DNA from: an uncultured Clostridia bacterium
Lineage (GTDB): Bacteria; Bacillota; Clostridia; Christensenellales; Borkfalkiaceae
Assembly: GCA_947631005.1 (NCBI GenBank)
Contig: CANRJR010000006.1
Span: 1 to 64,000, forward strand
DNA: 64,000 nt
Direction: 5' to 3'
Within the stretch, counting starts at the first letter, position 1. Each line of letters opens with the position of its first letter. Below the pieces are notes generated by a model. The model made no database searches and was not told the DNA's origin. It saw only the letters and a program-made list of their open reading frames with translations. A program made the position numbers and the translations under genes. Shown here in pieces: positions 5,251 through 64,000 of this stretch.

Positions 5251-5410
5251 TTTTCTTTTGGTGACAATTGTGGGAAATTCCGCTTTTTTCGGATTTTTTT
5301 CGGGCAAAAATTACGGATTGACCTATTTGGAATGCGAACAGAAGATCCCAATTTGTCATTTCAATCCGCTTGCTTCAATTCTATCATGTCCTCCCGCGCA
5401 GCTTCCAATG

Positions 5411-5563
5411 TGTCATTTCGAGCAAGCGAGTGAAACGAGCGCGTCGAGAAATCTCCCTTTCGTCGCGACGCGACGCGTTTTGTAAGCCTCCCCTAATGGG
5501 AAGGCTTACCTTTTACGTCGGTCGCTCCTCTTCGCGGAAAAATACTTCGTCTTTTTTCGCGAT
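5411..5563 (+). repeat. Composite repeat: half family-A element joined to family-B element (copy B1)
   Basis: The 5' half of the dispersed TGTCATTTCGA element (5411-5460) runs straight into family B at CGTCGCGACGCGACG (5461). Family B then has a hairpin with arms GTAAGCCT/AGGCTTAC, the conserved segment TTTTACGTCGGTCGCTCCT, and a second hairpin TCGCG...CGCGA around A- and T-rich inner arms. The same composite recurs at 63705-63861. Confidence 0.75.
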
Positions 5564-5607
5564 GGAATAAGGAATGGCATTATTGGAAGCGAAGCGGCGT
5601 TCTAAAT

Positions 5608-5710
5608 TGTCATTTCGAGCGTAGTCGAGAAATCTCCCTTATTTTTATTTTAAGCCTCATGAACGACCAAGGGGATTTCTCGATTCCGCTTCGCTACACT
5701 CGAAATGACA
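5608..5710. repeat. Family-A dispersed palindromic repeat, complete copy
   Basis: The element begins TGTCATTTCGAG and ends CTCGAAATGACA, so its 12-bp ends are inverted repeats. Inside are GAGAAATCTCCCTT and, 40 bases on, AAGGGGATTTCTC, which pair as a second stem. No ORF is present. Similar copies lie at 8840, 21974, 28254, 59453 and 63904. Confidence 0.85.
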
Positions 5711-5711
5711 A

Positions 5712-5796
5712 CGGAGCATAAACAATAAGAATAAGGGAGATGTTTCGACACGAGAGCCCGCGTCTTTTCGACGCGGGCTCTCGGCTCAACATGACA
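5712..5796. repeat. Family-E hairpin repeat (copy 1)
   Basis: A 14-bp perfect stem, CGAGAGCCCGCGTC (5751-5764) with its complement at 5770-5783, is embedded in a conserved context (AACAATAAGAATAAGGGAGA before, CTCAACATGACA after). A near-identical copy is at 28383-28465. It looks like a terminator hairpin without a T run. Confidence 0.75.
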
Positions 5797-5817: not shown

Positions 5818-6052
5818 TTCCAAATTACGGCGTTAGGTGGAATTCATTTCCACCGTGCGCGACACAATTTGCGCGAAACCTCGCGCTTATTGTCTTACAG
5901 AGCGAACGAGAGGACTAACTTAATTAAAGAGAGAGCTGGTTTCTATCACGAAATTTTGTTTTGGCGAAGCACAAAACAAAATTTGTGAACAAACAAAACG
6001 CACGGCGCGCTTTGCGCAACGCGCACGGCACAAGAAAAGAAAATTTGTGAAC
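5818..6052. repeat. Family-F structured repeat (copy F1)
   Basis: This element of 235 bases ends exactly at the stop codon of the minus-strand gene at 6053. It shares a conserved core, including CTTATTGTCTTACA and GCGAACGAGAGGAC, with two tandem copies at 28600-28993. Three hairpins are conserved by position while their arm sequences change in a compensating way. This copy also carries about 40 extra bases near its 3' end containing a duplicated CACAAATTTT arm. Confidence 0.8.
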
Positions 6053-8489: not shown

Positions 8490-8705
8490 CTTCGTAATGG
8501 TTTTTTATGACGATTTTTCATGCGATTCTTCTATCGCCGCCTTTCATTCGGAATGAGGTCGGAAACGGGCAGAGAAAAATATGGGAGATTCTTCGCTTCG
8601 CGGGCATTGCCCGCTTCGCTCTGAATGACATATCGGAATGCCCGTTCGCTTCTGAAATTCCATTATCGCTTTCATTTTTTCATTGCACCCCTTTTCCGAC
8701 ATGGT

Positions 8706-8797
8706 ATTTCGCCCCGCCCGCGGCTTCTATTTGTAGACCAAGGGCGGCACAAGCCCGCAGGGCGAAGTACCAAGCCGCTTCCCAATATGTCATTTCG
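8706..8797 (+). repeat. Family-D repeat (copy 1)
   Basis: A block of about 90 bases reads CGCCCGCGGCTTCTATTTGT, then AGACCAAGGGCGGCAC, then AGGGCGAAGTACCAAGCCG, and ends in the TGTCATTTCG start of a family-A element. Copies at 28174 and 59371 have the same order. Before it, 8581-8637 holds a degenerate family-A half. No gene is visible between 8500 and 9100. Confidence 0.75.
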
Positions 8798-8839
8798 CCC
8801 CATTTCCCAATTTGTCATTTTACCCGCCGCTTCTTTTTT

Positions 8840-8967
8840 TGTCATTTCGAGCAAACCGCGATAGCGGCGCGTCGAGAAATCTCCCTTATTTTTATTTTAA
8901 GCCTAATCAACGACCGAGGGGATTTTTCGACTTCGGCTCGCTTCGCTCGCCTCCGCTCAAAATGACA
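8840..8967. repeat. Family-A dispersed palindromic repeat
   Basis: A complete copy running from TGTCATTTCGAG to CTCAAAATGACA. It contains the paired inner segments GAGAAATCTCCCTT and GAGGGGATTTTTCGA. Confidence 0.8.
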
Positions 8968-11255: not shown

Positions 11256-11274
11256 ATTATCTCGCAAGACGAAC

Positions 11275-11684
11275 GCCGCTGTGGTGGAATTGGCAGACGC
11301 GCGTCGGCGCAAGCTCCGCGTTGAGCCCTCCCCGCAAGCGGAAAGGGCATGGTCGCTCCGCTGCGCCTCCTTTTCCCAAAAAAGCTCGCTATGCGATCTT
11401 TTTCGGGATTCCCCTATTTTAAGTCCCTTGCTTTGTTTTCATAAGCAAGTCGGAAAATGGAATAGTTCAATATAACACGCCGCTGTGGTGGAATTGGCAG
11501 ACGCGCGTCGGCGCAAGCTCCGCGTTGAGCCCTCCCCGCAAGCGGAAAGGGCATGGTCGCTCCGCTGCGCCTCCTTTTCCCAAAAAAGCTCGCTATGCGA
11601 TCTTTTTCGGGATCTCCCTATATTTTAAGTCCCTTGCTTTGTTTCCATAAGCGGGTCGGAAAATTGAATAGTTCAATATAACAC
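11275..11684 (+). repeat. Two tandem units, each a tRNA-Leu 5' fragment plus a family-B-like hairpin element
   Basis: Units begin at 11275 and 11479 (periods 204 and 206). Each starts with the first 26 nt of tRNA-Leu, GCCGCTGTGGTGGAATTGGC plus AGACGC, then departs into a family-B-like segment whose hairpin TCCCAAAAAA...TTTTTCGGGA is conserved. Each unit then contains TTTTAAGTCCCTTGC (11417-11431 and 11623-11637), the exact reverse complement of the anticodon arm of the intact tRNA. The acceptor 3' half and the T arm are missing, so these are not functional tRNAs. Confidence 0.85.
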
Positions 11685-11771
11685 GCCGCTGTGGTGGAAT
11701 TGGCAGACGCAAGGGACTTAAAATCCCTCGAACGCGAGTTCGTGTCGGTTCGAGCCCGACCAGCGGCACCA
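11685..11771 (+). tRNA. tRNA-Leu(UAA)
   Basis: An intact 87-nt class II tRNA with encoded CCA. Acceptor GCCGCTG pairs with CAGCGGC. The anticodon stem-loop GGGA-CTTAAAA-TCCC gives anticodon TAA. A long variable arm and the T loop GGTTCGAGCC follow. It is the third copy of a tandem array and is followed directly by family-B copy B2. Confidence 0.97.
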
Positions 11772-21784: not shown

Positions 21785-21973
21785 GCGTCATCGGAGATTC
21801 CCCGTGCGATTTTCGTGTCCCACGCATTGCCCGAATCGCTTCGCATTTCCCATTCCAGCCCTTGCTTCTTTTGTCATGCGGAACGGCATGTTAGAAGCGA
21901 AAGGACATTCTAAAATAAACGAGCATTCTAAAAACGAGCATTCTAAATTGTCATTTCGACCTATTTCCCAATA

Positions 21974-22094
21974 TGTCATTTCGAGTGAAGCGAAGCGGAA
22001 TCGAGAAATCTCCCTTATTTTTATTCCAAGCCTCATCAACGACCAAGGGGATTTCTCCGCTTCGCGGGCTTCGCCCGCTACGGTCAAAATGACA
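21974..22094. repeat. Family-A dispersed palindromic repeat
   Basis: TGTCATTTCGAG...AAAATGACA ends enclose GAGAAATCTCCCTTATTTTT and AAGGGGATTTCTC. A 5' stub of another copy precedes it at 21952. No gene is seen from 21785 to 22416. Confidence 0.8.
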
Positions 22095-28043: not shown

Positions 28044-28173
28044 TGCAATTTCGCGTACCGCTTGCCTACGGCTTCCGTTGTTATGTCCCTCTTTGCTTCC
28101 AATTATGTTATTCCGAGCGAACAGGCGTTTTCAAATTGTCATTTCGAGCGAACAGGCGTTTTTAATTTGTCAT

Positions 28174-28258
28174 TTCGACTCGCCCGCGGCTTCTATTTGT
28201 AGACCAAGGGCGGCACGAGCCCGTAGGGCGAAGCACCAAGCCGTTCCCCAATATGTCA
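28174..28258 (+). repeat. Family-D repeat (copy 2)
   Basis: It has the same order of segments as the copy at 8706: CGCCCGCGGCTTCTATTTGT, AGACCAAGGGCGGCACGAGC, AGGGCGAAGCACCAAGCCG, ending in TGTCATTTCG. Confidence 0.75.
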
Positions 28259-28379
28259 TTTCGACCAAGCCGCGTAAGCGGCGCGTGGAGAAATCTCCCG
28301 CATTTTTATTCCAAGCAATTTCAACGACCAAGGGGATTTCTCGACTTCGGCTCGCTTTCGCTCGCTTGCTCAAATGACA
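28254..28379. repeat. Family-A dispersed palindromic repeat
   Basis: A complete element, from TGTCATTTCGACC to CAAATGACA, with inner GAGAAATCTCCC and AAGGGGATTTCTCG. A partial 3' half lies at 28519-28571. Confidence 0.8.
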
Positions 28380-28382
28380 GTG

Positions 28383-28465
28383 TAGCATAAACAATAAGAA
28401 TAAGGGAGATGTTTCGACACGAGAGCCCGCGTCTCCTCGACGCGGGCTCTCGGCTCAACATGACA
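28383..28465. repeat. Family-E hairpin repeat (copy 2)
   Basis: Nearly identical to 5712-5796. The stem CGAGAGCCCGCGTC/GACGCGGGCTCTCG has its loop changed from TTTTC to TCCTC. Confidence 0.75.
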
Positions 28466-28599
28466 TTATTGTAATGCTTTTCTGGCTTCCAAATAACGGC
28501 GCGAGGAAAACCATAAAATGCGGGAGATTTCTCCGCTTCGCTCGTTTCACTCGCTACGGTCGAAATGACACATTAGAAATGCCTTTCAGGCTTCCAATT

Positions 28600-28791
28600 A
28601 CGGCGCGAGGAAAATCACACTTTTCCGCTGCGCGCCCCAATTTGCCGCATACTTGCGGCTTATTGTCTTACAAAGCGAACGAGAGGACGAACCTAATTAA
28701 AGTGAGAGTCCATTTCCGTCACGAAAATTTCTTTTCGCCACGCGCGGCGCGAAGCGCAACGCGCACGGCACAGAAAAGAAAATTTGTGAAC
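28600..28791. repeat. Family-F structured repeat (copy F2)
   Basis: 192 bases ending AAAATTTGTGAAC. Hairpins: GGAAAA/TTTTCC, GCCGC/GCGGC, and GAAAATTTCTTTTC with GAAAAGAAAATTT, the last closing a G+C-rich inner region. It shares the conserved 45-base core with F1 and F3. Confidence 0.85.
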
Positions 28792-28993
28792 TTCCAAAAT
28801 AACGGCGTTAGGTGGAATTCACTTCCACCGTGCGCGACACAATTTGCCGCACACCTGCGGCTTATTGTCTTACAAAGCGAACGAGAGGACGAACCTAATT
28901 AAAGTGAGAGTCCATTTCCGTCACGAAAATTTCTTTTCGCCACGCGCGGCGCGAAGCGCAACGCGCACGGCACAGAAAAGAAAATTTGTGAAC
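28792..28993. repeat. Family-F structured repeat (copy F3), tandem to F2
   Basis: 202 bases, directly joined to F2. The last 140 bases are almost identical to F2, but the first hairpin is GGTGGAA/TTCCACC as in F1. It ends eight bases before the stop codon of the kinase gene at 29002. No gene is present from 28044 to 29001. Confidence 0.85.
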
Positions 28994-29001
28994 TCCCCCC
29001 C

Positions 29002-29742
29002 TTATTGCCAATCGCAAACATTCACCCATTTTGCGAGGAACTCCTGTTCCTCGGGCTTCTTTTTAACCGACTGCGACGCCGCGACGATGGGCAAAATGCG
29101 CTGGACGTATTGCATGGCGGTGTCCGTTTTACTGCAAAACAGTTTGAGATATTTTTCGGCGAGCGCGTCCTTTTTCTGCAACTTGAAAATGAGGTAGGTG
29201 CGCGCGGCGTCTGCCGAGCCGTTCCCCTGCGTTGCGTGCGACCAGTCGATGATATAGGGCGTGCCGTCTTTGGTGATGATGACGTTGCTGGGCTGGAAAT
29301 CGCCGTGGCAGAGTTTTTTGTGGCGGGGCAGACCGTCGAGACGGACGTGGAGGTCGTAACGGACGGTAGCGGGAAACGAGCTCGCCGAAATTTTGGCGTG
29401 CATCTTATCGCGCAAGTGCCCCAAAAGCGGAACTTTTTCCTTGCTCATGCGGATTTGGAGATCGACGAAATATTCGAGATATTCGTCCGTCTTTTCGGGA
29501 TGCGCCTGCATGAGCTCTTCGAGCGTATCCCCCTCGATAAATTCCCAAATGAGCGACCACTGCCCATCGATGACGGAGACGCCGAGCACCTTGGGAATGT
29601 GCAGCGAACTCTCCTCGACGCGCGCCTGGTTGAGTGCCTCGTTGAGAATACCCGCTTTGGAATAGCTGCTGTCGAACGACTTGATGAGACGGTCGCCGTC
29701 GCGGTACAATTTCTTTCCCGCGCTTTCGTGGATCAGTTGCAT
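29002..29742 (-). CDS. APH/choline-kinase-like phosphotransferase
   Basis: The product is 246 aa. ATG at 29742 follows AAGGAGG. The kinase-like fold is shown by the catalytic motif LCHGDFQPSNVI (about 143-154) and the metal-binding IIDWSHATQGN (about 163-173). The N-lobe has the Lys of LIKSF near residue 20. This is the layout of aminoglycoside phosphotransferases, choline/fructosamine kinases and similar enzymes that phosphorylate small molecules. The substrate cannot be named. Single gene with its own promoter; a family-F repeat lies just after its stop. Confidence 0.8.
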   Translation of the reverse strand: MQLIHESAGKKLYRDGDRLIKSFDSSYSKAGILNEALNQARVEESSLHIPKVLGVSVIDGQWSLIWEFIEGDTLEELMQAHPEKTDEYLEYFVDLQIRMSKEKVPLLGHLRDKMHAKISASSFPATVRYDLHVRLDGLPRHKKLCHGDFQPSNVIITKDGTPYIIDWSHATQGNGSADAARTYLIFKLQKKDALAEKYLKLFCSKTDTAMQYVQRILPIVAASQSVKKKPEEQEFLAKWVNVCDWQ

Positions 29743-59306: not shown

Positions 59307-59370
59307 TGCTTCCGATTTGTCATTCAGAGCGCAGCGAAGAAGTACCAAGCCGCCGCTTCTTAAATGTCAT

Positions 59371-59459
59371 TTCGACCCGCCCGAAGCTTCTATTTGTAGA
59401 CCAAGGGCGGCACGAGCCCGCAGGGCGAAGTACCAAGCCGCCGCTTCCAATTTGTCATT
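59371..59459 (+). repeat. Family-D repeat (copy 3)
   Basis: The same segment order as 8706 and 28174, with AGACCAAGGGCGGCACGAGC and AGGGCGAAGTACCAAGCCG. Confidence 0.75.
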
Positions 59460-59582
59460 TCGACCAAGCGAACGCAGTGAGCGCGTGGAGAAATCTCCCT
59501 TATTTTTATTCCAAGCCTCATCAACGACCAAGGAGATTTCTCGACTTCGGCTCGCTCACGCTCGCCTCCGCTCGAAATGACA
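59453..59582. repeat. Family-A dispersed palindromic repeat
   Basis: A complete copy, TGTCATTTCGACC to CTCGAAATGACA. A 3' half copy follows at 59628-59684. A hairpin GCGAGCCCGCG...CGCGGGCTCGC (59738-59770), like family E, ends the cluster. No gene from 59306 to 59820. Confidence 0.8.
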
Positions 59583-59820
59583 GAAAAGACAAGGCAAAAC
59601 AACGGCGTAGCACAAACAATAAGACTTCGGGGGGGGGATTTCTCGACTTCGGCTCGCTTACGCTCGCCTCCGCTCGAAATGACAGTTGGGAAGTGGTCAC
59701 AGGTCGGAATGACAGAATAAGAATGCGTGAGTACAATGCGAGCCCGCGTCGGAAGGGCGCGGGCTCGCGTTTGAATCGCTTGATTTTTGCGGCATACATG
59801 AACGCAACGCCGCTTGTTCG

Positions 59821-63512: not shown

Positions 63513-63704
63513 CTGTTTTTTTATGCGTTTCCGCAAAAAATCGGGATTTTTCTAAATTTTTTTCGGGAAGTGTGAGGAAAGACATGTGGATCGACATATC
63601 CTCTGCAAAGCGGCATTCCTGATCGCCGTTCCAAGCGGAGCGGCATTTTGATTGCCGTTGCGCTCTGCACGCGGCTCTTTTGTCACTTCGCCCCTCTTTC
63701 AATA

Positions 63705-63861
63705 TGTCATTTCGACCAAGCGAACGCAGTGAGCGCGTGGAGAAATCTCCCTTTCGTCGCGACGCGACGCATTTTGTCAGCCTTTCCCAAAATGGGAAAG
63801 GCGTACCTTTTACGTCGGTCGCTCCTCTTCGCGAAAAAATACTTCGTCTTTTTTCGCGAGG
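63705..63861 (+). repeat. Composite repeat: half family-A joined to family-B (copy B3)
   Basis: TGTCATTTCGACC...GAGAAATCTCCCTT joined to CGTCGCGACGCGACG at 63755, as at 5411-5563. Hairpin 1 arms GCCTTTCCC/GGGAAAGGC and hairpin 2 TTCGCGAAAAAA/TTTTTTCGCGA differ from B1/B2 but pair. Confidence 0.78.
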
Positions 63862-63903
63862 AAATAAGGAATGGCGTATTAGAAGCGAAGAGACATTCTA
63901 AAT

Positions 63904-64000
63904 TGTCATTTCGACCAAACGAACGTAGTGAGTGCGTGGAGAAATCTCCCTTATTATATTCCAAACCGAATCAACGACCAAGGGGATTTCTCGATTCCGT
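63904..64000. repeat. Family-A dispersed repeat, cut by the window edge
   Basis: Begins TGTCATTTCGACC and reaches AAGGGGATTTCTCGA at the end of the window; the closing inverted repeat is outside. No gene from 63513 to the end. Confidence 0.78.

Follow-up and report, generated by a model that had tools for sequence, protein, structure and literature searches.

Repeat copies in the window

In the window, which is the whole stretch of 64,000 nucleotides that was analysed, two tandem copies of a hairpin-rich repeat element lie at 28600-28791 and 28792-28993, and a third copy at 5818-6052. All three had been claimed in a preliminary description of this DNA and all three were present, the covariance model placing them at 5830-5947, 28603-28720 and 28805-28922. 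The stem alternations given in that description, GGTGGAA/TTCCACC versus GGAAAA/TTTTCC, GCGCG/CGCGC versus GCCGC/GCGGC and CTTTTC/GAAAAG versus GTTTTG/CAAAAC, were likewise confirmed in the copies. Two copies had been said to end at or within eight bases of a minus-strand stop codon, and the distances are 0 and 8 nt. The features at the two sites are as follows.

5830-5860, plus strand: hairpin P1, version B, of the copy 5818-6052
5871-5886, plus strand: hairpin P2 of the same copy, in the other version GCGCGA/TCGCGC
5947-5990, plus strand: terminal hairpin T (TTTTGTTTTG version) and tail of the same copy
5991-6052, plus strand: partial second T hairpin of the same copy, made of the 3' part of the other T version and reaching up to the stop codon
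6053-7204, minus strand: open reading frame with flavodoxin and 4Fe-4S domain matches, its stop codon immediately after the copy 5818-6052
28475-28513, plus strand: truncated fragment with only the 5' lead and half of P1
28603-28633, plus strand: hairpin P1 of tandem copy 1 (unit 28600-28791), version A, GGAAAA/TTTTCC with loop TCACAC
28644-28659, plus strand: hairpin P2 of tandem copy 1, GCCGCA/TGCGGC
28720-28791, plus strand: terminal hairpin T of tandem copy 1 with the tail AAC
28805-28835, plus strand: hairpin P1 of tandem copy 2 (unit 28792-28993), version B, GGTGGAA/TTCCACC with loop TTCAC
28846-28861, plus strand: hairpin P2 of tandem copy 2, GCCGCA/TGCGGC
28922-28993, plus strand: terminal hairpin T of tandem copy 2 with the tail AAC
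29002-29742, minus strand: gene of the APH-family fold, its stop codon 8 nt from the 3' end of the tandem array (28993)

The mRNA of the APH-family gene would carry the minus strand of the element. Past the first hairpin, BLAST aligns the two tandem copies over 163 nt at 98% identity, and they thus differ essentially in P1. The element lies in mosaic clusters together with several other intergenic repeat families (such as the GTCATTTCGA..GAGAAATCTCCC type), and in the window these families occupy positions 5395-5790, 8583-8943, 21923-22094, 28117-28570, 59310-59685 and 63689-63999. A 148-nt direct repeat, 98% alike and 204 nt apart, was also seen at 11273-11710, directly before the tRNA gene at 11685-11768.

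Architecture of the unit

The element is about 200 bases long and reads, on the plus strand, as a weak 5' lead (AAATnACT/CG), P1, CAATTTG, P2, CTTATTGTC, a core (GCGAACGAGAGGAC..TTAAAG or other versions), TTTCC-TC, the long terminal hairpin T and a tail AA(C/A). Flank profiles showed a sharp 3' end directly behind T, with no clear conservation past the tail and, in other species, conservation of only about 8-12 nt upstream of P1; a shared terminal inverted repeat was not seen in them. Among 52 copies of the own genome, another repeat ending in ATGACA precedes 27, the 3' end of another copy precedes 11, one of two other modules replaces P1 in 12, and the contig ends at 2. A core stem GAGGA/TTTCCTC, possible by eye in relatives, is not followed by the own copies and was left out of the model.

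Tandem copies were found in other species too, and at one locus (L151:1900-2830) nearly identical units follow one another in tandem at a spacing of about 165 nt, with two unrelated P1 hairpins taking turns. In the BRZ MAG/Borkfalkia lineage (L094, L087, L129, L091, L100) P1 and P2 are retained, another structured block takes the place of the core, and close to the full copy there is a partial inverted one. An extra TTTGTGAAC follows the 3' end of T at a distance of 9-12 nt at nine places of the own genome (loci L007, L010, L012, L021, L066, L070, L071 and L073), and these are possible footprints of earlier copies.

Family size and distribution

The preliminary description had proposed collecting further copies. 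With the tandem pair as query, BLAST located 53 places in the own genome of 2.0 Mb and hit 46 of the 61 genomes of the genus. The covariance model, built from 17 copies, gave 55 matches in the own genome and matches in 53 of the 61, with counts of at least 60 in two genomes, where the upper limit of 60 scored candidates was reached. With 53 BLAST places and matches across the genus, the repeat is far beyond chance. In an order-wide scan of 396 genomes, made with stricter filters and at most 9 candidates scored per genome, 16 matched at 1e-6, namely 11 of the 14 genomes listed for the own genus, 4 of the 20 listed for other genera of the family, and one, weakly, in another family. Among the matches listed in a separate scan, the named records are uncultured Clostridia MAGs, many of them labelled Lapin, and one Candidatus Borkfalkia stercoripullorum.

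An exact match to one 24-base motif was not found in IMG/VR, and blastn gave no matches in plasmids and phages. The element had not been recognised as a known RNA family in the preliminary description, and indeed Rfam release 15 at the gathering cut-off returned only the tRNAs of the window, with nothing but weak chance matches of no relevance at a permissive threshold. In the open-access literature, judged by titles and the beginnings of abstracts and with subscription journals mostly outside the scope, no description of this repeat was found.

Position behind stop codons

Gene edges were located with a hexamer gene finder trained on the same loci. It was applied to 42 own copies and 60 from other genomes, 102 distinct copies in all, each having a defined 3' end, for which a T hairpin tail starting with AA was required. 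For sixty copies a gene edge lay no more than 40 nt away from the 3' end, and 55 of these faced a stop codon (23/24 own, 32/36 others) and five a gene start. The median distance from stop codon to element was 3 nt, and in 37 of the 55 it did not exceed 5 nt. Gene 3' ends account for 247 of the 454 intergenic edges (54%) of these loci, giving a nominal binomial p of 3e-10 with related copies not being independent. Where the next gene was farther off, a stop codon was faced by 27 of 36 copies. The count errs low at 5818-6052, as the finder missed the adjoining gene, for which direct reading gives 0 nt. The 3'-UTR position suggested earlier was thus borne out: the element stands in fixed orientation, T starting a few nucleotides behind the stop codon, so that the mRNA of the gene would carry the minus strand of the element with a long, near-perfect hairpin first. 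Behind T, the gene strand showed no intrinsic terminator in the window.

The proteins translated back from the 55 stops were of diverse kinds, and BLASTP links were found only among loci of other species, none joining a neighbour of an own copy to a neighbour of another genome's copy. The idea of a regulon was rejected on these grounds.

The sites themselves are lineage-specific. The APH site spans 969 nt in the own genome, whereas in nine relatives with conserved gene order it measures -4 to 155 nt and holds no model match; in relative L231, copies of its own begin 4 nt behind the APH stop codon, and the APH-site loci L237, L241 and L243 each hold a model match somewhere in the locus. At the ileS-like site, named for a gene that we take to encode isoleucyl-tRNA synthetase, only the own locus of 30 has a match, with 0 of 29 relatives (at least three of the relatives' loci end at contig edges). 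A very recent burst is not visible, since the most similar dispersed pair of own copies is only 98.1% identical over 161 nt.

Pairing and covariation

The model gave 249 distinct hits, 52 own and 197 from other genomes. From these a sequence-based alignment of 44 copies was made, comprising version-A rows of one length with a CCACGC-type loop and excluding other P1 versions. Pairing, which had been noted in three copies, was conserved across the genus, with a covariation score of 0.414 compared to 0.106 in shuffled alignments and 0.101 at the best slid position, which is the excess over controls expected of a structured RNA. Paired states filled 98.7% of 703 cells, with 9 cells unpaired; 11 of the 16 pairs had two-sided changes, and RNAalifold recovered the same helices and one further pair. 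Two-sided differences occupied 96 cells and one-sided differences 1, where cells count sequences and not events.

Pairing was also compared between distinct stems. In 43 distinct P1 stems, 5.86 of 6 positions paired with their own partner and 4.41 with a swapped one, and the arms of P1 vary while the loop (CCACGC, TTCAC, CGCC and relatives) stays. T was sought in 156 hits and 138 reached a score that was also reached by 34 of 156 shuffled controls, so that this threshold is weak alone. In a cleaner test on 46 distinct T bases, 7.85 of 8 positions paired with their own partner, compared with 5.32 when the partner came from a copy having another 5' arm. Sixteen of the 46 retain a bulge at the fourth T base, and a few have G-A mismatches.

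Mode of change of the stems

Between nearest-neighbour distinct stems there were 42 two-sided and 19 one-sided differences, showing that one-sided steps do exist. Only 7 of 555 pairs in distinct stems were G-U, compared to 31 of 404 in 19 tRNAs of the same loci (Fisher p 7e-7), which makes them about six times rarer in the element. Wobble asymmetry did not single out one strand as the folding one across P1, P2 and T, the six inner pairs of P1 having 6 G-T and 0 A-C, P2 having 0 and 9, and T 4 and 3; with G-U at 7/555 and the strand inconsistent, the one-strand wobble pairs expected of a structured RNA were not seen. Two-sided differences outnumber one-sided ones and G-U is rare, so that exchange of blocks, or template switching from arm to arm, accounts for the pattern no less well than compensatory selection acting step by step.

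Exchange of whole hairpins was evident in the own genome. Typed at P1, P2, one core variant and T, 49 own copies (those with the anchor among 50 of full model length) formed 32 distinct combinations, and the six pairwise mutual informations among the slots were all at the shuffled level (p 0.17-0.82). Linkage r2 was 0.362 for sites 1-2 nt apart, 0.056 for those 21-40 nt apart and 0.023 for those 41-80 nt apart, the shuffled value being 0.021; the exchange boundaries are not sharp, given that 0.056 is still above background. The P1 versions A, B and C are common to the own genome and other species (55 of 249 rows unassigned). The slots P1, P2, core and T are thus filled independently from a small menu in the own genome, and this menu is partly common to other species.

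Close relatives also differ by whole hairpins at orthologous sites. P1 was wholly different within four of five orthologous-site groups, with the stop-proximal boundary unchanged. One pair (L139/L143) kept core and T and not P1; in another (L102/L105) P1 and T differ and the core is similar; in a third (L109/L146) P1 and the T arms are kept, with differences in the core block and in a T-loop insert; and L033/L107 also has a G-C to A-T compensatory change in T. The statement that paired changes point to selection on structure is therefore not supported in that form; in the own genome the changes are whole-hairpin exchange with linkage equilibrium, and in-place swaps are seen at orthologous sites.

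Candidate mobilisers

The own genome is 99.94% complete with 55 element copies, and it was searched for four families, Y1_Tnp, RVT_1, the TnpB zinc ribbon and DDE_Tnp_1. As to the IS200/IS605 origin that had been raised, Y1_Tnp (PF01797) is absent from the own genome. Of the 61 genus genomes 15 have it, and its presence is unrelated to copy number, the mean element count being 20.8 in these genomes and 19.6 in the others (Mann-Whitney p 0.72). Reverse transcriptase as the maker of the mosaics was rejected, RVT_1 being absent from the own genome and present in 10 of 61 in the genus with no difference in copy number. The TnpB guide-RNA idea was dropped with the absence of the TnpB zinc ribbon (PF07282) from the own genome, and DDE_Tnp_1 was not found there either.

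Comparison with known repeats

In the consulted part of PMC3049150, the BOX elements of Streptococcus, which have boxA and boxC ends, differ from one another chiefly in how many boxB modules they contain, and are reported with target duplications and terminal inverted repeats. BOX, as portrayed there, and our element are both intergenic, modular and structured, of similar size range (BOX typically below 200 bp), clustered with and inserted into other repeats, strain-variable, and over-represented between convergent genes. Unlike BOX as presented in that part, the element has fixed slots filled by alternative hairpins and a fixed polarity to the stop codon, and no shared terminal inverted repeat shows in its flank profiles; these architectures were compared by reading, with no BOX sequence aligned. 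REPs are, in the consulted portions of PMC3733652, PMC12306157 and PMC3116915, single hairpins of 20-40 bp with a GTAG or CGTC tag and are often tied to RAYT genes. According to the same portions, REP, BIME and REPIN sequences resemble the element as dispersed palindromes, many downstream of genes and some within 15-20 nt of stop codons, with stems carrying alternative complementary residues. In contrast to that REP description, the element is about 200 nt long with several hairpins instead of one of 20-40 bp, no GTAG/CGTC tag was seen at the foot of T, and the Y1 transposase (RAYT/TnpA) of REPIN and IS200/IS605 systems is absent from the genome. Template switching is described in the excerpts of PMC8794818 as creating and mending hairpins; as in those RNA hairpins, the arms here change together and the stems remain perfect. 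The cases in these excerpts concern RNA genes, whereas here dispersed repeat copies are involved, with whole-hairpin exchange in addition.

Interpretation

The observation made in the preliminary description is confirmed and its interpretation is partly supported. Our best reading, to which we give about an even chance, is that the element is a non-autonomous, structured chromosomal repeat of the 3' UTR, BOX/REP-like, which evolves by exchange of hairpin blocks. Hairpins may be swapped at the constant linkers (GCGCG..CAATTTG, CTTATTGTC, TTTCC-TC and GTGAA), either by recombination over short patches or by template switching, and arm-to-arm correction by template switching, a mechanism like that in the excerpts of PMC8794818, could help the stems to stay perfect. 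By analogy with REP sequences near stop codons, as the consulted portion of PMC12306157 has them, a role at the mRNA 3' end is proposed, in which T behind the stop codon would shield the end from exonucleases or limit read-through, and the orientation would be held for that reason.

A conserved RNA, either an independent ncRNA or a cis-regulator with stems under ordinary compensatory selection, would account for covariation beyond the shuffled and slid controls, for the conserved loops and for the one orthologous site with a G-C to A-T compensatory change. It is rather unlikely, as G-U pairs are scarce (7/555 against 31/404 in the tRNAs), wobble asymmetry indicates no single strand, whole hairpins are replaced at orthologous sites, the diverse neighbour genes have none in common between own and other copies, the element is absent from specific sites among relatives, and some lineages have a replaced core. 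Palindromes that lie in neutral 3'-UTR space and are kept perfect without selection, through ectopic gene conversion and template switching during replication, would fit the excess of two-sided over one-sided differences, the few G-U pairs and the known ability of template switching, in the excerpts of PMC8794818, to create and mend hairpins. Such correction should, however, erase the loops, which remain conserved, as well as the fourth-base bulge of T (16/46) and the few G-A mismatches, which persist, and the fixed orientation behind stop codons implies some constraint; we consider this explanation unlikely. A neutral reading in which 3' UTRs merely tolerate insertions explains the location, but not the orientation.

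We regard it as quite improbable that the element is the remnant of a single-strand-DNA transposon of the IS200/IS605 or REP-RAYT type, with the hairpins as recognition sites of the transposase. Hairpins near both ends, the sharp 3' end directly behind T, tandem copies and lineage-specific sites are what such a remnant would show, but Y1_Tnp and the TnpB zinc ribbon are absent from a nearly complete genome full of copies, the presence of Y1_Tnp is unrelated to copy number in the 61 genomes, and the arms of T are entirely different from lineage to lineage, a replacement that would not be expected to be tolerated by a specific transposase. A bolder form of the block-exchange reading, which we hold to be a long shot, is that hairpin cassettes behind stop codons are rewritten in place by a dedicated activity at the constant linkers, which would give genes interchangeable 3'-UTR structures from a menu that is partly cross-species.

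Functional RNAs are usually proved by covariation, and here strong covariation in the own genome stems from the exchange of whole hairpins. As covariation can arise in this way, with few G-U intermediates genus-wide, the element is a warning to RNA-discovery pipelines and allows template switching and compensatory selection to be tested directly against each other. For the gut bacteria that carry it, the near-exact, oriented placement behind stop codons points to either an unrecognised role at mRNA 3' ends or a mobiliser that targets the ends of genes.
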